A stretch of 64,000 nucleotides of DNA from Tubulanus polymorphus. Lineage: Eukaryota > Nemertea > Palaeonemertea > Tubulaniformes > Tubulanidae. Location: assembly GCF_964204645.1 (NCBI RefSeq), contig NC_134026.1:1116001-1180000 (forward strand), in the 5' to 3' direction. The position numbers and the translations under genes were made by a program. Under the pieces are notes generated by a model, which saw only the letters and a program-made list of their open reading frames with translations, did no database searches and was not told the origin of the DNA. Below, one piece after another: positions 2,861 to 64,000 of the stretch; positions within the stretch are counted from its first letter, which is position 1; every line of letters begins with the position of its first letter.

Positions 2861-4261
2861 CCCCTTATTAATTGGATTTAAAATCTTGACCATTATAAGT
2901 AATTCTAAATAATGCAGTGCGAATGCAGCATATTTCATTTGTAATCTTTTGTCGATACCTGATAAAGAAAGTACCACGCTTTCAATTAATTGGCTTCACA
3001 CTGCAGTATAGGTGAAGTCTTCAGATGACTAAACAGTCATAAAAAGCCAGAAGTACCGAGCTGACTTCAATAAAAAACCATCGCATTATGCCGTACCTTT
3101 TAACTGATATCGTTTAAGTAGGTTCCAATCGAAGGGTAATGAGTAGATTACTAATTAGTACAGACTCATAACTGCCCGCCCGAACTGATGCAGGTTTTAA
3201 TATTCATAAATAATAGGACAGCTGTAACACAGAAACGCCGGTCATTAATCTATCTATTGATGATCAGATGAAGTTTTGTGAAGATGTTACCGGTAACACG
3301 TGTCTACGCGATTGTTATAGATACACGATGAATTAGTAGATATTAGAATATATCGATATAGGGCCTCGTAGATCGAAAACAGGCGAATAAAATAATGAGC
3401 AACCATCGACTTAAAAATGCTAGAGCATCATTAGTAAAACACTACACACATAGATCAGTCTCTTCGGTCTCTTGTTTGTTTCACGATGATTTCATGAATA
3501 AGAATAATTGCTCATTACCCGAGCGTCCGGTCGACGCTCATCGCGATCAGTTGCTCATTTTACGGCCAGTATTTCCTCGTTTTACTCACAATCGTAGCTG
3601 ATTAAATGATTTTTGGTTTCAGCTCGGGCGCGTGTGGAGTAATTTTGCCACAGGTCACACACGACAGTAATATTTTACTACGAATGAATCATCATCGTTA
3701 ATGTGTCTCTTCAGGCGTTGTTTTAATGATGTCATATCAGTATTTCATTGTTTTTTATCTCATTTTTGATTCGATGTATTTAAAAGATGATATCGCTATA
3801 ACAGGGATGCATCGAGATTATCACTCTAGCGCTGATACTCATCGATGAACACAGTTTAGATATAAAAATAAACATCCCCCCCAAATTCTCACGTTACATT
3901 TGAAGGTGGTAAAATTTCAAAATTTTCTGGGAGGGATACCTACAACCCATCGGCAGTACTCCGCATCCCCTCCTGCTAAACACTCGTATTATTATGAACT
4001 TATGACCATCGTTGATGGTAGATTTAATTTTTCATTGCCCCGTAGATGCACCCTACACATCTCTACCCCTTCAGGCGCAGCAGTCTAAATCAATAGGCCG
4101 AACACACATGAACCCAAATTATCTTCTCTAATATATTGATATGGTTACTGTAACTGTTCTTCTAATGGAATGTTTGTAGATGTCATTTGTACAGTTCATC
4201 TGTCACTAACAGCTTTTAGATGTTTGACGAGGCATCGAAAGAAGAATCTGTAGGGAACCGA

Positions 4262-7600: not shown

Positions 7601-10600
7601 TCCGTCCCAAACAGACCAAGCTGGTGAAAAGTCCATTCCCAAATTGGTCCTTTCCATTTCAAACATTTTTGACTGAACTGAAAGACCAATCCAGATCCAT
7701 CAACATTTCAGAGCTGACCATTTCTCTGTGTTTGAATAGAAACCGTCATTCACAACGCTGGTTCTAGCTGGACCAGTGATAACAGGGCATTTAAAAACAT
7801 GTGTGAATGCACCACGTTTATTCGACTGGTTCTAAATTGGTCCGTTCCAAATCAAAACGGGCAATAGTGTAAAACATGGCTGATGATGAGTTCATTTGAT
7901 TGTGACATGATTTTGATATATCGTTTTTTTATGTTTCTAGGTCGTTATCGAAGAATGAAATTGCAACTATAGACGAAGGAACATTCGACGACCTGAAATC
8001 ACTTAAAAAACTGTAAGTCAAACATCTTTTATTCGATGTCGTCTTCATAATTTCAAATTTCTTTTATTCGCATCGATTTTTGCAGCGATTTTCAATCGAA
8101 TCATTTGATTTGCGATTGTAAACTGCGGTGGATATTGCGCTGGTCGAAGAATCGTAACGTGCGCATATCGGACAACACCAAATGCGCGTTTCCCAAAGAT
8201 CTTGAGAAGCGTTCAGTTCGTACGTTAAAGAAGAAATTACTCCACTGCAGTAAGTGTGTTTACTCACGTCTTCTGTCAACATATTTTCTATTCTTTTTAG
8301 TCACGGAAAATTGAGCGAGTATCGGTTGCATCAAATAAACCGCGTTCACACGGTCGCTGTTAGTCCATTTTTATTTGGTCCGTACCTCGTAAGGACCTAT
8401 CTAGAAGGGACCAAATCAATGCTGTGTATATTTGCGCGATATGTTTTAAGTCAGCTGTTATCACTCTGTTCAGCTTGATTCGATACGGTGATTGACAGGC
8501 AATTAAAGCAAAGTTCTTCATTTGAAGCAATTAAAGCAATCATTCTGTTAGGTGAGGATGAATTGGTCCCTTCTGAAATGGACCAATTTAAAATGGTGTG
8601 AACGATTGGTGCGTTCTAAATTGTAACGGAAGGTTCTAGATTATGTTATATAAAGCGGCTACAGCCTGGAAGTATTGTAGCGATCTCGCAATGATATCTG
8701 TGCTGATATTTTCGGAGTTAAGTCATACACTTGTAGCTAGATCTTTCTCCGAGTTACTGACAGTTAAATCGTGTGACAAGCGACTTTAGCGTTAAGCAGT
8801 ACCTGGGATTTAATGCAGTTACCTATAATCGATAGAGACCGTCTCTAAACTCATATATACGACTAGTGAGTGTAATAGTAAAAGACGACTGTGGCTGAGT
8901 TAATATCGATATTTATCGCGTTGATTGACGTGAACACATGTCTGTGAGTCATGTCTCTGTGAGTTGTCCGATGTATTTAATGAAGTTACCAAGTTGTCAT
9001 TGATTTCGATAAATCTGTGTTAGGAACCGATGAATGGCGTCTGCTCTGTGCTATTGATCACGTGTGTTTACGAGGCTCTGAGCGTCTGATAATTCGACGC
9101 TGTATCAATTTGTTGCACTTAACCAAAATTGTTGTATAATTGTAGCTAGTTAACGCGTGTAATTGGTTAAATGCTGTTGAGTGTGACAGAATTTCACAGA
9201 TGCAACTCTCTTAAGACCTCAATACAGTTTTCCTGATGTGAAGAGAATAGCCGCAATAAATCCCTTTTTATATAAAACGAACAGTTTTAGAGTCCATGCT
9301 GGAACTGACTGATTTAGAATGGTCCAAATTATTGCTGTGCATTCATGCACATTTATCACTGGTCCAACTAGATACAACATTGTGATTGACAGGCAATTAG
9401 AGCAAAGAGCCCATATCGATAGATTTATTCAATTCAATTGCTGATATTTTTGAAAATGGCTCATACCGAATGAGTTGAACTTTAGGCCTATAGTTTTTCT
9501 GATTGTGCATTTTTCTTTCATATGAAGATAGACAGTTGTTTGTCTGTGCAAACTGATGTCTCTCGCAAAATGTCATTTGGCTACGAGGTATGAAAACTGA
9601 TCGTACCGAATTTAAGAGCGCTCGTCGGTTTTATTGTCAAATCAATATCTCGAATGTACAGTTACTAAATCATTTGATACTAAAAGAGCAACATTAACCG
9701 ATTTGTTTCTAGCCTTCCGAAACTGTTCAGAAATTCATCATCTATAAATTCGTTTGCGATAGATGTTCAGTTCAGTTTAATTGACGTATTCATTACGCTT
9801 TCAAAAATGCGCTTTCATGAATTATGAAATAGTCGATTTCGACAAAGCAATTTACGATGCTGATTATTTTGATCGACATACGAATAAAATCGTAACGAAT
9901 GTAGCCGTGCGAGCTGTAGCGGTAACCCTGCGAGCTGTAGCGGTAACCGTGCGAGCTGTAGCGGTAACCCTGCGAGCTGGAGGGGTAACCCTGCGAGCTG
10001 TAGCGGTAACCGTGCAAGCTGTAGCGGTAACCCTGCGAGCTGGAGGGGTAACCGTGCGAGCTGTAGCGGTAACCCTGAGAGCTGGAGGGGTAACCCTGCG
10101 AGCTGTAGCGGTAACCCTGCGAGCTGTAGCGGTAACCCTGCGAGCTGTAGCGGTAACCCTGTGTGCTGTAGCGGTAACTAACCCTGCGAGCTGTAGGAAA
10201 TCAATTTCAGTCGTAACCTGTACGTGTGCAGTGATCTGATCGATACTCAGGCGTTATTCTATAGACAATTTTTCTGATAAGTATCGCATCAAAAACAATG
10301 CAGTGAATCAAATTTCATTTATAAGAGACGAAAAAATATGTATGCGCGTCGAAATCAATGATAGCTGAAAATATTGCTCGCTTACTCCTTGATTCCTCAG
10401 TTAGATATAAACAGTGGTGGATGATCAGATGGCCTGGACGAGACCCTGGGTCAAATTTAGCCCCGTGTGGGACGCACGTAAATCACTCGTTACTTGAATG
10501 CTATCAAAATGATGCTGTGGCAAGTGAGGCGATTCATTTCCAGAACCAGTTAGCATTCGCACCAAATAATTTGACTGTTGCCAAAAGTTGGCTTGGGCTT

Positions 10601-21636: not shown

Positions 21637-24600
21637 TCACACAATTCTATTACTGCACATACTGAATCTATCTACGTCTGCTAACGGTGGTTTATTATCC
21701 TCTAATTCTTCGATGATTTCTTCGCCGCCGCTCTTCGAACGTTCGCGTTTGTGAGCGCTGATCTTACGTTCTTTAATCACCTGATCGCATTGTTTCTCAA
21801 CCTCTTTCTGTTTCTCTTCCGTCAAAACGTGTCCCATCAAACTCAACGTGCTGTTCGACAGTATCGGTTTACTGGATAGCGACGGTTGCCTCATCGCCAT
21901 CTGCGGCGACGCGCCTTCCGACTTCGATGGCGGCGTCGTCGCGCCAGTCGGATGATTATGTTTCGGTTTTGGCGGCGTGCCGACGTCTGAATTTCTGCGT
22001 CGGTGAGTTTTTCGTTTGATATTTTGTCGCGGTAAACTGACGCTGAATCGGCGAAGATTCATCATTTCCGACGTCGCCGTGCGTTCTCTTTTCTCCTCTT
22101 TATCTTTTTCGTGTCCTTTCTTTTCGCGTTCTTCAAAATATTCGTTCAGATAATTGCACGTTTTACCGAGCATTACGATACTGTTGAGGATTTTGAACGT
22201 CAGTAAACTGAAATTTGAAAGAATCGAAATTATAATCATTTATTCAGATCAGTTAACACAGAATTCATCTAACTGAAGAATGGGAATCTTTTATGAGGAT
22301 TCCACTTGTGGAAAAGAAGGATCCACCGCATGTGCTGGTGTTCAGTAGGATACCAAACACTTCTGGCAAACAAATCCACCGGGTTCGCAAATAGTTAGTC
22401 TGTCTGAGTGCTCTATGTTCAATTTCTTCTACATTTCAAATCAAATTGAATCAGTTTCATAACAAGACAATCATCAATGAAATTTCTACCAAACGCCGAA
22501 GAGAACAGTCAATGCGCCCATGTGTTAATATTTAGATTCGGGACCTTAAATCATGGATAGTCACTGTATCTGGTTGGATAGCTCGTGTTGTGGTTCCCTA
22601 TTGCATTTTTACGTGAAGATGGAGAAAGTAGAGAACTTACCACAAATAACCAACAAACAGAAGAAGGATTCCTAACCAACCACTAATCTTCAGAGACTGA
22701 GTGAATATTCTAATGAGCAGAACGGCAAGCGGCAGCGGAGTGAAACCCATACGACGAGATACCAAATCGGAATGGTCTGAAAATGCCTGAAAATAAATGT
22801 GAAACTCAAAATTAGAAATCAGCATATCCGGATTGAAAAAATACCTGAGTTTTACCTTTTTCATGCGACTGCAGGCCGTGTCGTAAGCTAAACTAATCGT
22901 ATATTCACGATAAACATCGGCCGATAGATTATTAAACTTAACGATGAAAGCGTGTTTTAACCAATCAACCAAGATTTCCGATAATAGCACCATCAAAATA
23001 TCCGGAATTAACTGCCACAAATGATCTGAAATCGATGATAATTACCGTACGTGAGAACTAGTGACATGAAAATCAGCGTAAATCTAAAACTCTGTTTCGA
23101 ATATTTACCGAGATCCCAGTTGAATTCGGTCATATTACGAACAACTACTATACATAAAAGAACGATATAATGAAATCTCTCGCGGACGTCGCTGCACGAC
23201 ATCTGAAATAGGTTATCTTTGGCAAACTTCTTAAACACGCTGCCTTTTATTTCAACAAACTGCAAATCAACGGCATAAGAGCGATTAGACAAAACATGAG
23301 TTTGAAAGTTGAAGATTTTCAAATCCTCATTTAATATCATCTTACATTGTTTGACATCATGATAGTGAGCAGCGCTTTATTATGAGAATTAAATGCAACG
23401 TTTAAAGTTGTAGCTTGAAATAGCACCAGCATACTGTGTAAAACTAATTTGAAGTTAAGGATAATTTTGACGGTGACCATGCGATGAAAAGATTCCGATG
23501 TTAGATTTGTATATATTGGATAACAATTAATGAAACACTGTCCGTGTCATGTAAAATCCCACCTTCAGAAAAAGAAATGTAAAATGTTTTCATATAATTT
23601 CGGAGTAGTATACAGATGATTATGAAATAAAATCATAATCATGAAGATTTTGAAAGTTGCGTTTTTCCTATTATTTGAAATGTTTTTTGAGTTAATATGT
23701 TATTCAAATGGCTATTAGGATATGTGGGGATATATATAAATTTTTTGTATAAAGGATACACACATAAATAATAGCTATGAACAGTAAAGGAATAACACCC
23801 CAATGTTCCCTCTTTCTATGTTGCTGTTCTGTCGCTGTCCAGAACAACGAATCCAATATATCCTGACCAAATGACGCGAATAACCGATCAGCTATCTGAG
23901 AAAATTAAAACAAAAATATATATTTTTTTCTATTATCAGATCTATCACACAATTCACATTCTCTGAAAAATAGCCCGTAACTGATCCTAATCTACATGTA
24001 TATTAAACGCAATAACAACCACTGCTGCTACTTCTAATGCAGTCCAGAAATACTTGTCGGCAAAGCGAAATTTGGTACTCAATAAGGATTATACATGTAG
24101 AGATAGTCAGCTGGGACAATCATCATGTGCTTAGTATTAAATTGAATTCAAAATAAGCAAATTGGGACTTAAACATAGAGACAACTTCACTGAGTTTAAA
24201 CTGGAATTCATCATATAAACAGTCTTTACCAAGAATTACCCTAAATTTTTGTGAATAACTCAAAAGACAAGTTATGATCTTACCTCAAGCATATTGAAGA
24301 ATATATAAAGCTTTATAATTGCTTGTCCTCTAATGATGTGATACATGACTGAAGTATCGACGTAATTCATCGCGAAACAACAAGCGATTAGAATAATGCC
24401 TTTGAGCAAGTCACATATTTGAGCCGGTTCCATCACGCGCTGAGACCTTCAAAAAATAAATCATAAACATCCAATAAAACACAATTTTCAAACCGCTGGG
24501 AGTCAGTCAGGGTCAGTGGGAGTCAGTCAGGGTCGGTGGGAGTCAGTCAGGGTCGGTGGGAGTCAGTCAGGGTCGGTGGGAGTCAGTCAGGGTCTGTGGG

Positions 24601-25919
24601 AGTCAGTCAGGGTCAGTGGGAGTCAGTCAGGGTCGGTGGGAGTCAGTCAGGGTCGGTGGGAGTCAGTCAGGGTCGATGGGAGTCAGTCAGGGTCGGTGGG
24701 AGTCAGTCAGGGTCGGTGGGAGTCAGTCAGGGTCGGTGGGAGTCACTCAGGGTTGGTGGGAGTCAGTCAGGGTCGGTGGGAGTCAGTCAGGGTCGGTGGG
24801 AGTCACTCAGGGTTGGTGGGAGTCAGTCAGGGTCGGTGGGAGTCAGTCAGGGTCTGTTTCACTATAAAGTTTATGCTGAGAACAGTCATTGAAAACATGA
24901 AGTAACCATACAAATAGCAGAAAGCCCATGACAAATTTTTTTGGTTAAGTTGATATTGATTACTTCATCTTTTCAATATATCTTCAACAATTAAAATCCA
25001 GTCATTGTTGGCATTTAACGTTTTCGTGAAACTGAATGCAGGCCGTTATTAGCAAGTTTTAGTTTGTTTTCTTTTTCTATATGATAGAGAGAGAAACTCT
25101 GCCGTAACCAGGATTCAAATCAATGATCCCCGGATTGATGAAACAAATCACTAAACCTCTCTAACAGATCAAACAATATTGATTTGTAGTAGAATCTGAT
25201 TTTTTTTTTTTACAGATGGATGAAGAATACTTACCCACATTGAAATATGCCACAAGGATGAGTGAATAAACGAAGAACTGCCATCAGAAATCTCGGCGGC
25301 AGAAAAGTGAATAAAAAACTGAAAGCATCGGTGCATTGTATAAAACCAAACATCATAAACTGAAAATCAAACAAAACAACAGAATCTTCAGTTTTCATTC
25401 CGGGGTTCGTTTGTTATTGGACAGCAACAGAAATATATTGGAATTCTAAATTCAAGCCGGAGGTTAACACTTACTTTTTCCATCTCTCTCGGAATCCTCA
25501 TGAAAGTATAAACTCTTTTACTTTTCTCTTCGTATTTCGCCTCATCGTGTTCGAGGAAATAGCCGCGAGTCAACTCCGATATTAAATACTGCGATATCGA
25601 AGCAGCTGGACGCGCTGAAATAATTACAAACGCACGCAATCTAGTTTTATGAAAAAGTTACAGGCCTTAGAGGACAACAATTCAAACTTCACCTTAATTA
25701 ACTTTTCAAGAAACTGGAAACTCAATGTGATAAGTAAAAAAAGGCCACGTTAAGTCTGTTACCTTTTTGAAAGGCATCATCATCTCCTTCATCATCACTT
25801 TCATCATCCTTTTCTACTGCACCATCATCCGCTGCAGCTGCAGTTTCAGTATTTACCGTCGACACACCCGGCGTTTCACAACCACCAGCTCTCGATCCGA
25901 TTGTTTCAACCGATGTCAT
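21637..25919 (-). CDS. TAPT1: Transmembrane anterior posterior transformation protein 1 (TAPT1)
   Basis: Ten exons on the minus strand join in frame: 25763-25919, 25475-25614, 25235-25359, 24284-24446, 23760-23895, 23346-23443, 23109-23259, 22856-23025, 22641-22786, 21637-22207. They sum to 1,857 nt, or 618 aa; human TAPT1 is slightly shorter. Family landmarks are the ELTRGYFLEHDEAKY block, IRGQAIIKLYIFFNMLE, FVEIKGSVFKKF, KHAFIVKFN, RRMGFTPLPLAVLLIRI and a C-terminal DRFSMCSNRIV. Several hydrophobic segments give a multipass membrane protein. Vertebrate TAPT1 is linked to ER/Golgi trafficking and the centrosome/cilium base, and to axial skeletal patterning. The start is the first ATG in frame after an upstream non-Met stretch; the N-terminus is acidic and Ser/Ala-rich, as is common for the family. 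Intron 3 holds a 20-bp minisatellite. Confidence 0.96.
24497..24858 (+). repeat. 20-bp minisatellite, about 18 units (TAPT1 intron 3)
   Basis: The unit GTGGGAGTCAGTCAGGGTCG repeats almost perfectly. Two units carry the linked changes CACTCAGGGTTGG, at about 24741-24760 and 24801-24820, which shows a 60-bp higher-order duplication. Because 20 is not a multiple of three, all three forward frames stay open, producing spurious reading frames. Confidence 0.95.
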
Positions 25920-26295: not shown

Positions 26296-26647
26296 GGCCC
26301 TACGGAAGCCCCTAGGTGACATACGTACGGAAGCCCCTAGGTGACATACGAGAAAACTTTTTAAGTCGAATTTCGACTTAATAAGTCGAATTTCGAGTTA
26401 ATTAAGTCGAATTTCGAGTTTTATTTTCATGTCGAATTTCGACTTATTAAGTCGAAATTCGACTTAATTAACACGAAATTCGACTTATTATGTCGAATTT
26501 CGACTTATTAAGTCGAAATTCGACTTAATTAACACGAAATTCGACTTATTATCTCGAAATTCGACTTATTATCTCGAAATTCGACTTAATAAGTCGAAAT
26601 AATGAAAAAAATTATCTCATATGTCACCTAGGGGCTTCCGTACGGCC
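26296..26647. mobile_element. Terminal-inverted-repeat element with palindromic satellite interior
   Basis: The left end GGCCCTACGGAAGCCCCTAG and the right end CTAGGGGCTTCCGTACGGCC are inverted copies; the left one is present twice in tandem (26301-26350). The interior (about 26361-26600) is made almost wholly of alternating AAGTCGAATTTCGACTTA and AAGTCGAAATTCGACTTA palindromes joined by AT linkers. There is no coding capacity, so it is a non-autonomous element (MITE-like). The transposase family is not identified. Confidence 0.8.
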
Positions 26648-38603: not shown

Positions 38604-40577
38604 TTAACGGTATGAAAATTGCGTATAATTGCGAAATATGAGGATGTGTTCCTTCGTCGGCGATAAAGCGACTTCGACCCAGTCTTTTGACTTTATCTTA
38701 GGAGACGAACACACGATTCGATCTCCGATCGAGAACGATTTCGCCTCCCACAGCCCCGCGCCGTATTGAACGGTTAACCCGTCGTAGACGAAATACTGAG
38801 GTAATTCCTTTTCGGCGCCATTTTTATACTGAATTCGAACTTTAGGCGGATGCACCACGTTTCCCGTGTAGACACAGCCGATATTCACTAATTCACCAGG
38901 GTTGAATTTGATATAGTACGTTTTGTTGTCGTTCATTTTATGAATGTTCGTCCAGGATATGACAGACGGTTTTGCCTCGAGTGATTTCGTCTTGTCGTAA
39001 TTGGTTTCCGTGCACAAGTCCCGTTGCGTGATAAGGGAACTGTGCTTTTTCGTGTATTTCTGGGTATGCGATAACTGAACGCAAACTAACCAAGGATGTT
39101 CGCCTTTGAAATCGTTGTTGTTGATTCTTAAATTCATTTTAACGACGTTGCCTTTTTTTCTGCCCGTCGTTAGTTTGACATTTTTGAAACACGATTTTCC
39201 TTTACGCGTGAACCATTCGAACAAATTACAGGCAACACTCGCTTCTTTGCCGAACATGTATTCAGTAATCATATGCGTCACCCCGGCTCTCGGATCGAAT
39301 GATGAAACTGAAGTTTCGGCACTCCCCGTATGCAAAGTAGGCTCCGATTTGAACTTCATCTCGGCTTTAATATCGAATGTTGGCCGACCGCTTATATCCA
39401 TCGGGATATGACTGGTGAGCGTAGGCGCGTTCACTGCGTACGTTCCCGCGTCTAGACCGCCCCACGATATATAAAGTATATGTAATCCTCGACACGACTT
39501 CTTCCTCACTACGGCGGCGTATCGCATCGACTCCAAAAACTCATCGGATTTTATCGACGGTATTTTCACGCCGATCGAACACAGTTTTCCTTTTCGATCA
39601 AAGTATCCAGAAATTCCATCTTTATCTGTAATTAATCAAATCAAAAATTACCGCGAGACGTTTTGAAGACTACGATGACAGCAATAAGACACACAAATCT
39701 ACTTCTTCTAATTTGCCATTAGTTTTGTTTGAAACGATGTCCTGGTCATTCCTTTGTAAATTGTATACTAGACGCTTATTTCGGAAAAAGAAGTGAGGAT
39801 GTAATTTTCAGAATTAGTTAAATGCTTTTAGACAGAGAATCCCACATTGATTCTAACCTTATAGTCATTTCAATAGATTATATGCTTAATTTTCTTGTTA
39901 AATCGGTGCGGGATTCTCAACATATCGTCAGAGCACGGACACAAGTGTTTCACCAATCTATAGTTAAATGCTTTTTAAGTTTTCCTATTTTTTGGCTATA
40001 TACATTTCGTAGAAGTACGTAGTTCAGTGAATTTGGTGTGATACCTGTGTAATTCGGCGGATATGATCTGGAATACGAGTTGTTTGCCGCGGATGAAAAT
40101 CTCGTCAAAAATCCAGAAATGTCCGGTTTACAATAAAAACGCAGTTCAACTTTTCCCGATTTTCCTACTTTTCTCGTGGCGACGTCCAGAACCATGATAC
40201 CGGGTAAATCTGGCCTGCATTCATCGTCCGGTGTACTTCTCTGCAAAACAATTAAATTACGTTATTAGATCTCTTCTAAACTATCAAACTATATTCCTAT
40301 ATTGTTGTTGTTTGACAAATTTCAACACGATTCGATAAAACGAGAATATTATATTCTAATCAGCTTTATGTTGATCGCGATCGATTTTGTCCTATCACTC
40401 ACCCACCCGGGAAAAGGTTGCTTTCGGGCAATTGCTCTAGCGATGTAAGATCGTTTATCCCTGCATAGAAAAAAAAATGAATGCACTTACCGACAAAACA
40501 ATGGAAAGAACTAGAACGACGATAAACGCCAAAGACACGACTAAAAATATAGCGATTGATGTTCTTTTGTTTATCAT
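38604..40577 (-). CDS. Unrecognised type II membrane or secreted protein
   Basis: Three exons join in frame: 40491-40577, 40045-40240, 38604-39625 (1,305 nt, 434 aa). Exon 1 encodes MINKRTSIAIFLVV and continues into a hydrophobic stretch to about residue 28, with Lys/Arg just before it, which suits a signal anchor (type II). The rest is hydrophilic, with Cys scattered in a way typical of extracellular or lumenal domains, and sequons such as NNS and NDNKT. A segment around YYIKFNPGELVNIGCVY and another around VEVALSPTKEHILIF recur in beta-sheet-like spacing, but I cannot name a domain. I do not recognise the family. It lies on the same strand as the tocopherol-cyclase-like gene, 1.2 kb upstream of it; nothing shows a functional link. 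Confidence 0.75.
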
Positions 40578-42627: not shown

Positions 42628-45600
42628 ATGCCAAGCCGTGTAGCAAAAAGAAAGGGTGAACACCTAGCAAGCGACAGTAGCATCGACAGCAATAGTAGAA
42701 AGCTTATTCTCGATCAAAAATGGTTAACTATGGAAAATGGTTTGAAAAGGGTCAGTTTTGAAAAATCAATTTTACCGATCAACCAAATCATTGAATACTA
42801 ATTAATCGCTCATTTTAATCCTTATCTAACTACAGTTAGATGCTAATGAATTGAAATCGTGGATTGAACATTATCGCGACACAATGCCCGGTACGCCGTT
42901 GATTTGGCTGCGAGATTTAGTCGCGAGAATCAACCATAAACTGCAAGATATTCCAGATAGAGATCCTACATTTCATGGTTATCCAGTAGGTATGTACATG
43001 GTTATCCAGTAGGTATGTACATGGTTATCCAGTAGGTATGTACACGGTTATCCAGTAGGTATGTACATGGTTATCCAGTAGGTATGTACATGGTTATCCA
43101 GTAGGTATGTACATGGTTATCCAGTAGGTATGTACATGGTTATCCAGTAGGTATGTACACGGTTATCCAGTAGGTATGTACATGGTTATCCAGTAGGTAT
43201 GTACATGGTTATCCAGTAGGTATGTACATGGTTATCCAGTAGGTATGTACATTGTTATCCAGTAGGTATGTACATTGTTATCCAGTAGGTATGTACATGG
43301 TTATCCAGTAGGTATGTACATGGTTATCCAGTAGGTATGTACATGGTTATCCAGTAGGTATGTACATGGTTATCCAGTAGGTATGTACATGGGTCATTCT
43401 TCGATAATTGCGTACTGATGTCCCTGACTTTCAACACCATAGAAAAATTCTGAAAATGGATCAAATGAAATTCTTTTTGCGCTTTAGGGAAATTCTTGAC
43501 ACGATTGAGTTTTCTTTATGTCTAATAAGATGTATTTATTGATGGAATTAACATTTTTTTTAATCCCAGAAGGTCAAGAGGTATGTGAAAATGCTATGTC
43601 CCAGACATCTAGATTTTTTTATGCTTACATAGCAGAAAAGTTCTTAGTTTTTGCGATATTTCAGGAAATTACTATTACATGTCTAAAATCACTATAGGCC
43701 TATAGGATGGCTTTAAAAGAAATATGAAAAAAAATTCCATCCCTAAATTTTGTTCATTTCCGTCATGGCTGATTAATTGATCAATCTCCGACAAGCATGT
43801 TAACCGGATGAATGTATGCGATGTTGCCAGGTAATGGAAGGCACCATTTTCAAATCTCAGCATCAAGGGATGTCTGAAACGCTATTTTAGCTATTCTTAG
43901 GTCATTTTGCCCAGTTCAATGCTCCATACGTAAAATATAGATGCTTAACACAGAGGCCTAACGCTTCTACTTGTGGACGCCAGGTACGTTCAGGTTTTGG
44001 ATCTCCCCAAAATGATGTCATTGAAGCTTTATTTTGGTGTTTTCTGCATCTCTCATATAAACTCATGCTTTGATTGACGTGGAACATTGATACTCATTCA
44101 TGTGCAGAAGCAGCAGATCCTTGGACAGGGGTGGCTGATTTTCAGAGGGTTGGATGTAGAAATGCCATCACTTCCACTGTTTATGGTCTTCGTTTTCATT
44201 TATCTTCGTTATTATTTCTTAACTTTCAGATTATCCGCTTAATTTGCTGAAAGCTGATGTGAAAGTAGTTTTAGAAAATACAATAAAGACGACCGATCAC
44301 GGAACTTTGGAACACATTTTTGAACACTGTGTACAATGCATTATTAATCATACACAATGCGGTAAGTGTCGTTGTATACATTTAAAAAGAATTGAACTTT
44401 AAAACATTCTTTGATCCAGTGATTATTTGCTAGTTCATATTATAATACATGTATTACCGACAGCCTTGTGCAAGTGCTTGGCCTATATAGATTGGAAACA
44501 GGTTTTGGTCATGAATTAGTGATATAGATTTGAACAGTGATATCTACTTTTTATCTTGCGTAATTCCATCTGTGGTGTTTCTATTTTAGGTGAATCAAGT
44601 TTTGGTTATAGATTGGTGGTGCAAATTTTGGCTTCAGTTCATCCTGATGTCACGTTGACTTCTTTGTCGAAAGTAAGACATTTATTGGAATTGTTCGCTA
44701 GAGGTGATGAAGGATCTTTCGTAGGCTTTTCCTTTCTTTTCTTCACTCGATGTAAATATTGAGGTTTTATTTTCGTTTCTCGCATCATTTTTAACAACGC
44801 TCACAAATTTGCTAATCCAGTGGAAAAAGACTCTACAAAGTCGCCATGAACACATGAAAGGGATGTTTGGGGAGATGCTTATTTTCATACAGGGTATTAC
44901 GGTTATTATAAGCAGGGGTTTTGATACATGTATAAATCTTTATATATTGTCAATATTTTATTAGTATCTTGAACTGATGAAACACAATCAAACCAAACAA
45001 GAATTGTGTTTAGCAGTTATGTGGGCCACCGGGCAGTGTGGTTACAAAGATCTTTATTGCGGATTGCGAGGTAACTTTTTTAAATGTTGCTATCTATTAC
45101 TGATAAGCTACCGCAGCCAGTATTTCATGATACATATCGTAGAAGTGGGCTTTTAGTATTATTTAGCTGTAGCTTCTCCCGCATTTGTAGAATCTTCACT
45201 GTCTGAATTTTTGTAGATTATATTTTAAACATTTAGAATACATCTAGAGCTTTTTTCAAGCGACTCATTTTATAACTCATCATTTTGTGTATTTTGTTTT
45301 AACTAATAACACAGTGTCCGTCTCTTTATTCGATCATTCAGATTCTATCGATCACATTCTATTCTTCGAAAGGATAATCGCGTAGTTTTCATTTTCAGTA
45401 TGGTTAGCAGTTATGGTTCCGACGTTAGGTTTACCGGTGATGTCTGACTATGCCGTTTGGTATATAACCTACTTATTTGAGTAAGAAAACCACATAAAGC
45501 TCTTATATTATACTAAAAATTCTGATAATGATTTATACGATGAATTTATATTTGTAGGATGCACGGTGATGTACGGAGCGCTTACTCCTCTATCACATTC

Positions 45601-49413: not shown

Positions 49414-50556
49414 TCATAATTCCTTGTCTTTATTAAGACTGAGATATCTTTGAACGCGTTCGTATTCATCCCTGATATGAAGAGACGACGGTCGTTTCCT
49501 GGCGACGATATTTTTACAAGTTCGATGAATACGATGCAGATGAAACTGTAAACTTTCGCTGCCGTTTCTCGAGCCGAGGAATCGCGCGCAAACGTCCGGT
49601 ATTCGCCACACGTCGATTTTCTCGTCGTAGCCCGGCATCGAATCGTCGTCGAACTCGCGATCGTCGTACGGCCACAATTGTTCGGGGGCGACGAAATCGC
49701 CGAAAAGCTGCCGTCCGCCGCATTTTACGCCCGAACCGGGCTTCGCTTCGGGTAGCGCGTCTAAATCGTTTACGACCAAACGTAGATCGGACGTTAACAA
49801 GAACTGACTTAACGTTTTATCGATGTCGTTTGAATCGCACATAACTCGCGTTCCGATCGGACTTTTATGTAAAAACGCGAGTATATCCACGTAATCCATA
49901 CATAGCTGGAACCGCGTGGATACTTTGTTATAATGAGCGACTCTTTTTAAATTGAGCACGTTTTCTAAATTATCGGCCGATTTGAACTGATGAAACTCCG
50001 TAACGATCGACGTGTCACAAAATCCGATAAGTTGCGTAAATCGTTCGTTCGTTTGGAAAGCTGTCAACATTTTCAGTCCGTGTTGAAAATCTGCGATGTA
50101 TTTCTCGTCGGTTAGTCGCGAAATAGCAACTTTTTGATTCATCCATTGCGCTAGATTCACCTAGAGAAGAAAGGATTTATTACACGTGGCGATGTCAAGA
50201 GTTTTGAGAAGGAGAAGTAAACATTTCTTAATTGATTATTGTTCTACCTGTTTAACGACGCCGCGTCCGATTTCTTCACCGATCTTAATTTCCGATTCAA
50301 TTTCATCGCAAGTCAACCACGGTCGACAGGAGTCCATTCCGGGAAGGCTGAACTGACCGTGTTCGCATTTCGGTCTGCATTCGACCTGCGCGACGTTGTT
50401 CTGCGGGTTACTGTGCAGGAAATTTTGTCGACATATTTTCGGTATCACTCGCGATTCATTGAAGTAATAGATGTATAACGTGACCATGAGTGACAGGAAA
50501 ACTGGTAGAATCACGTGAAGAAGGTCCGTCATACACAATACCGCCAATGCCTTCAT
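49414..50556 (-). CDS. POMK: Protein O-mannose kinase (POMK, SGK196)
   Basis: Two exons, 50248-50556 and 49414-50160, join in frame (1,056 nt, 351 aa; human POMK is about the same). Residues about 1-30 contain the hydrophobic signal anchor (LLHVILPVFLSLMVTLYIYY), so the protein is type II with the kinase domain in the ER lumen. A Cys-rich stem (CRPKCEHGQFSLPGMDSCRP) precedes an atypical kinase domain: the glycine loop is weak (GEEIGRGVVKQV), the Lys is in NQKVAISRLT (about residue 113), the catalytic loop is VMCDSND (about 210-215) and the metal site NDLDALPE (about 234). These are the POMK versions of the kinase motifs. It phosphorylates O-mannose on alpha-dystroglycan core M3, which allows matriglycan addition and laminin binding. 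Confidence 0.97.

Positions 50557-54452: not shown

Positions 54453-64000
<9,548 letters not shown>

Follow-up and report, generated by a model that had tools for sequence, protein, structure and literature searches.

How is one 5' splice donor chosen when a single exon end offers 18 identical ones, and what does such an array mean for the gene that carries it? These questions are raised by a 64,000-nucleotide stretch of the nemertean Tubulanus polymorphus (contig NC_134026.1, positions 1,116,001 to 1,180,000, forward strand; hereafter the window, whose own numbering is used unless another contig is named), in which a tandem array of 23-bp units straddles the junction of exon 2 and intron 2 in a gene of the TMEM214 family. 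The same contig carries a second TMEM214 copy, with which the locus is compared below. Our favoured explanation, to which we give a probability of roughly 75%, is that the array is no dedicated switch but a neutral minisatellite of the 'mirage' type known from amphioxus, lying on an exon-intron boundary and spliced from its first donor (donor 1), with the other 17 copies leaving with the intron. The gene and the array comprise the following features, in which a slash, here and throughout, marks an exon-intron boundary.

42628..42750, plus strand: putative exon 1, MPSRVAKRKG...NGLKR, with donor GTCAGT at 42751; proposed from open frame and splice phase, its start codon and extent being predicted.
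42836..42989, plus strand: exon 2, 154 nt, LDANELKSWIEHYRDTMPGTPLIWLRDLVARINHKLQDIPDRDPTFHGYPV plus 1 nt; from the PF10151 match over the joined exons and the length and phase of the second copy.
42974..43392, plus strand: minisatellite of 18 x 23 bp (CATGGTTATCCAGTAGGTATGTA) plus terminal CATGG; coding sequence makes up the first 16 nt and intron 2 the remainder.
42990..42995, plus strand: first of the 18 donors, GTATGT, called the authentic 5' splice donor from frame, Pfam continuity and agreement in exon length with the second copy.
43013..43386, plus strand: 17 identical decoy donors, GT at 43013 + 23n (n = 0-16), the last GT at 43381; each adds an in-frame TAG.
43388..43392, plus strand: terminal CATGG, which pairs with the CATGG at 42974-42978 as a 5-bp direct repeat, read from the sequence, with slippage as the presumed mechanism.
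42990..44229, plus strand: intron 2, 1240 nt, in which the array is followed by some 840 nt of ordinary sequence and the acceptor is TTTCAG.
44230..44361, plus strand: exon 3, D-YPLNLLKADVKVVLENTIK..., with donor GTAAGT at 44362; PF10151 match, matching phase.
44965..45071, plus strand: exon 5, YLELMKHNQTKQELCLAVMWATGQCGYKDLYCGLR; PF10151 match in a search within the animal's own genome, boundaries from splice sites.

Tandem Repeats Finder placed the array at 42974-43392 (period 23, 18.2 copies, 98% matches, 0 indels, score 810), and a unit-by-unit reading resolved it into 18 complete 23-bp units of CATGGTTATCCAGTAGGTATGTA at 42974-43387 followed by CATGG to 43392. Each unit joins 16 nt of exon 2 to 7 nt of intron 2 and so spans the exon-intron boundary, and the 9-nt donor TAG/GTATGT is unchanged in 18 of 18 units. 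Single substitutions were found in units 4 and 9 (T>C) and in units 13 and 14 (G>T), in each case at the third or fourth base of the unit and outside the donor. Within the 267.8-Mb genome (77 contigs), TAGGTATGT occurs at a 23-bp spacing only here, and the length and identity of the array exclude a chance origin. The tandem array of 18 identical donors described in the first-pass annotation is thus real, and its exon end (42989) and first GT (42990) are correct, but the array starts at 42974, 2 bp earlier than the 42976 given there. That one or a few real units were multiplied in the assembly is highly improbable; tandem arrays are indeed error-prone in assemblies, but this one, at 419 bp, is far below long-read length, the 268 Mb are assembled into 77 contigs and the four variant units are internal and lie at distinct places.

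The assignment of the gene to TMEM214 and the position of the exon 2 end, both proposed earlier, agree with three observations. The joined exons (exons 2 and 3 and their neighbours) form one continuous match to the Pfam TMEM214 family PF10151 at 146.1 bits (gathering cut-off 27), the TTTCAG acceptor is followed at 44230 by exon 3 in a phase that fits, and the other copy of TMEM214 (29.96 Mb, minus strand) has an exon 2 of exactly 154 nt with an identical end phase. Between the two copies 21 of 51 exon 2 residues are identical. The donor of the second copy is CAG/GTAGTT, and no array was found at its exon 2 boundary. Because exon 2 has the same length and phase in both copies, the 42989/42990 junction is ancestral and the array a later addition; judged from this comparison, donor 1 (GT at 42990) is the ancestral donor. 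The second copy (C2:29957000-29966500) also has a minisatellite of its own, 13 units of 24 bp at 3275-3588 of that locus, which lies in a later intron and off the exon boundary.

The shared position and phase of intron 2, together with the equal exon length, also rule out that the intron was gained by tandem duplication. The array resembles the Rogers model of intron gain by AGGT tandem duplication (PMC4974935) in that an AGGT-bearing segment has been copied in tandem, but differs from it in that no new intron was formed, both TMEM214 copies sharing position and phase. Similarly, boundary tandem repeats able to provide extra splice sites have been described in human duplicated genes (PMC2812944); there, however, intron structure changes between recent paralogues, whereas here the intron is ancestral and unchanged.

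The array would have started from a single ancestral 23-bp segment, the last 16 nt of exon 2 plus the intron 2 donor, lying between two CATGG direct repeats. A flanking direct repeat is the usual seed for slippage, and the 5-bp CATGG repeat probably seeded the first duplication in this way, with subsequent expansion to 18 copies. If splicing takes the first, ancestral donor (GT 42990), the gene would stay functional and the array would be close to neutral. This use of donor 1, the neutrality, the slippage origin and the rule of donor choice are what we infer; donor 1 may be selected through exon definition or through 5'-to-3' scanning, the latter as reported for the human F7 gene.

Two published systems are close to this arrangement. 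In amphioxus, minisatellites over exon-intron boundaries are called 'mirages' and occur in Adh3 and in the globin genes BflGb6 and BflGb9; they lie at both 5' and 3' boundaries, frequently carry AG/GT signals and vary in length, and regular splicing is apparently undisturbed, so that regular mRNA is made (PMC3087553). The repeat units of the Adh3 mirage measure 10-72 bp (PMC3087553). The TMEM214 array likewise has a unit that spans the boundary and carries AG/GT signals, but here the gene is a TMEM214, the unit is 23 bp long and the 18 donors are identical. In intron 7 of human F7, 37-bp repeats are present in variable number, each with a donor, and only the most upstream donor is normally used, a choice termed 'oriented scanning' (PMC6627357). 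Both loci thus have a near-identical donor per minisatellite unit directly at an exon end, although F7 is described there as having a few highly homologous 37-bp units against 18 identical 23-bp units here, and donor use has been measured in F7 but is predicted from sequence in TMEM214. As judged by its structure, the TMEM214 array shares with the amphioxus mirages and the F7 repeats the sequence features that define them, and most likely it is a further case of these already described boundary-spanning minisatellites. The novelty implied by the first-pass annotation was therefore too high in view of amphioxus (PMC3087553), of human F7 (PMC6627357) and of at least four other donor arrays at apparent exon ends in this genome.

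The choice of donor matters for the protein. After splicing from donor 1 the frame runs on (HGYPV-D-YPLNLL), while use of any of donors 2-18 ends the protein in ...HGYPVGMYMVIQ-stop, as had been claimed. All 18 donors have the same predicted U1 pairing, -8.1 kcal/mol; the exon 3 donor pairs more strongly, the putative donors of exons 1 and 5 less so, and about 1.4% of the GTs on this strand score as well, the array donors counted in. In the predicted RNA fold, the mean unpaired probability is 0.21-0.25 at 17 of the 18 donors and 0.34 in unit 16. Because the donors are equal in predicted pairing and fold, position rather than strength must set the choice. The fold itself was considered as a signal and rejected: it is more stable than dinucleotide shuffles (z -6.75), but arrays of shuffled units fold equally well in 13-18% of cases, and the 18 donors are about equally paired.

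Donor 1 is favoured since it alone leaves the frame open and since the two TMEM214 copies agree in exon 2 length (154 nt) and phase. The explanation as a whole gains from the single continuous PF10151 match of the joined exons, from the recurrence of similar arrays at other apparent exon ends of the genome and from the regular splicing of amphioxus mirages and F7 repeats in published accounts. Three points weigh on the other side. The use of donor 1 is read only from frame and exon length; duplicated strong donors have in vitro often favoured the intron-proximal site, a preference that would select the last copy here and bring in a stop; and no decay was seen in the 17 decoys, although the array's four substitutions are too few to give this test any power (Fisher P = 0.16).

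The in vitro preference bears on a more drastic possibility, in which intron-proximal donors win and this allele is silenced, being tolerated through the second TMEM214 copy, which lies on the same contig and is the better match. We regard this as very unlikely, considering that the first exons examined are intact with a frame open across them, and that silencing would be needed in the other array-bearing genes too. A milder version, in which donor 1 dominates but some transcripts use donors 2-18, meet the stop and are degraded, making the dose of this TMEM214 copy depend on unit number, is less improbable but still unlikely. Each decoy is identical to donor 1 and followed by a stop, and downstream junctions would make that stop a target of decay by the established rule. 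An allele of the variable-number tandem repeat in human TERT intron 6 leads to more truncated isoforms, by way of a G-quadruplex rather than repeated donors (PMC11830802), and in human segmental duplications exon-intron boundary repeats often accompany alternative transcripts (PMC2812944). Against such leakage, regular splicing is reported for both the amphioxus mirages and the F7 repeats, and the TMEM214 sequence bears no mark of regulation.

The first-pass annotation had also likened each unit to a zero-length (recursive) exon, by which the intron would be removed stepwise. TAG does stand directly before GTATGT in each unit, giving the required AG/GT, but the 20 nt before CAG contain only 50% pyrimidine; the corresponding values are 75% for the acceptor of exon 3 and 82% for a different array of the genome. 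Lacking a polypyrimidine tract, the units would be poor acceptors, and the idea is unsupported; moreover, steps of 23 nt are too short for an intron, and intron 2 measures only 1240 nt. We therefore give recursive splicing hardly any credence here.

Whether the TMEM214 array stands alone was addressed by a partial census, in which three donor motifs were searched in tandem across the genome and the flanks were then read; exons at these arrays were called from reading frames, splice signals and partly weak homology. At least four further donor arrays, of about 5 to about 80 units, begin at an apparent exon end, and one acceptor array was found.

C1:31781000-31786500 (31.78 Mb), minus strand: donor array L060, 81 donor units, each about 37 bp, over about 3 kb, between exon ...ARLGCSCI(R) and exon HALLSAGVLFTECMW.
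C1:811500-814500 (812 kb), minus strand: donor array L063, five donors, 39-bp unit, making up the greater part of a short intron that follows a coding exon of 197 nt.
C6:144800-149800 (146 kb), plus strand: donor array L068, 75 units of about 26 bp, downstream of the signal-peptide-like exon MDLYVLAVCLLLVVLPLKT(G).
C6:164800-168000 (166 kb), plus strand: donor array L069, 47 units of about 26 bp, downstream of the same type of exon, MDLYVLAVCLLLVVLPLKT(G).
C6:22540800-22545800 (22.54 Mb), minus strand: donor array L075/L078, more than 60 units of 45-51 bp, after exon end ...SLPVSLVNIGE with GAG/GTGAGT.
C9:12092500-12096000 (12.09 Mb): acceptor array L061, five 22-bp units with TTTTACAG, immediately upstream of an exon that matches PG_binding_1 weakly and that we take to be MMP-like.

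In the C1 arrays and the C6:146-kb gene, later donors break the frame by a stop or a shift. The 31.78-Mb unit consists of a polypyrimidine tract and TGTATCAG/GTATGTTT, with no substitution in this core over 81 units, and by its sequence it looks like a textbook recursive splice site. In the databases the surrounding gene is supported solely by weak similarity to a Sec7-domain protein (E = 0.0015); a Sec7 domain was looked for near the array and none was found, and the gene is presumably ARFGEF3-type-like. L068 and L069 belong to two copies of one mucin-like, secreted-type gene, and in their donors position +6, which is T or G, varies more than the rest. In the 22.54-Mb array the first few added units keep the frame, and it could be an intron or a coding repeat. 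Several other donor-like arrays (L064-L067 and L071) had no visible exon in their flanks. A minisatellite family sharing GGTATGTACA was considered and not accepted, as the two other 23-24-bp arrays that match it, on C8 (in a cathepsin-B-like intron, opposite strand) and on C1, do so at about 70%, and chance may account for this among the many arrays of similar period.

The frequencies of such arrays give no ground for invoking selection. Counts of three donor-like 8-mer motifs in tandem, set against their reversed patterns, were 200 versus 55, 55 versus 178 and 59 versus 404, so that any excess over the reversed pattern is inconsistent. Arrays with at least 4 copies number about six per 64 kb, and a rough uniform-birth estimate, with assumed donor numbers and good to an order of magnitude, gives about 5-50 arrays over the three motifs, which covers the five or six or so seen at apparent exons. 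At 31.78 Mb none of the 81 units departs from the donor core, in contrast to a variable C/T tract (P = 1.5e-10, naive count), but selection on this core is unproven because units copy each other and the C/T tract is prone to slippage; the +6 variation in the C6 arrays is a trend in the opposite direction. It is improbable that donor-born minisatellites recur in this lineage with unit number tuning gene dosage via leaky decoys that end in decay. If that were so, the invariant TGTATCAG/GTATGTTT in the 81 units would signal donors kept by selection in some arrays.

The neutral mirage reading supports the view that mirages originate time and again, and that they are tolerated since splicing keeps them hidden. 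Eighteen equal donors that differ in position alone, taken with the other arrays and their copy numbers of about 5 to about 80, are a natural series that bears on the spliceosome's rule for 5' splice sites, namely whether it takes the first, the last or a mixture.

Arrays of this size are common in the genome, and the window itself has other minisatellites with periods of 20-21 bp at 24497-24854, 9901-10196, 26356-26600 and 58206-58332, the one at 26356 being built on the near-palindrome ACTTATTAAGTCGAAATTCG. On the minus strand of the window, a 343-codon uninterrupted frame at 38604-39635 gave no match in a Pfam search, and an intact 248-codon frame at 49414-50160, whose product we assume to be POMK-like, matches the FAM69-type protein kinase family PF12260 weakly, at 19.5 bits and below the cut-off.
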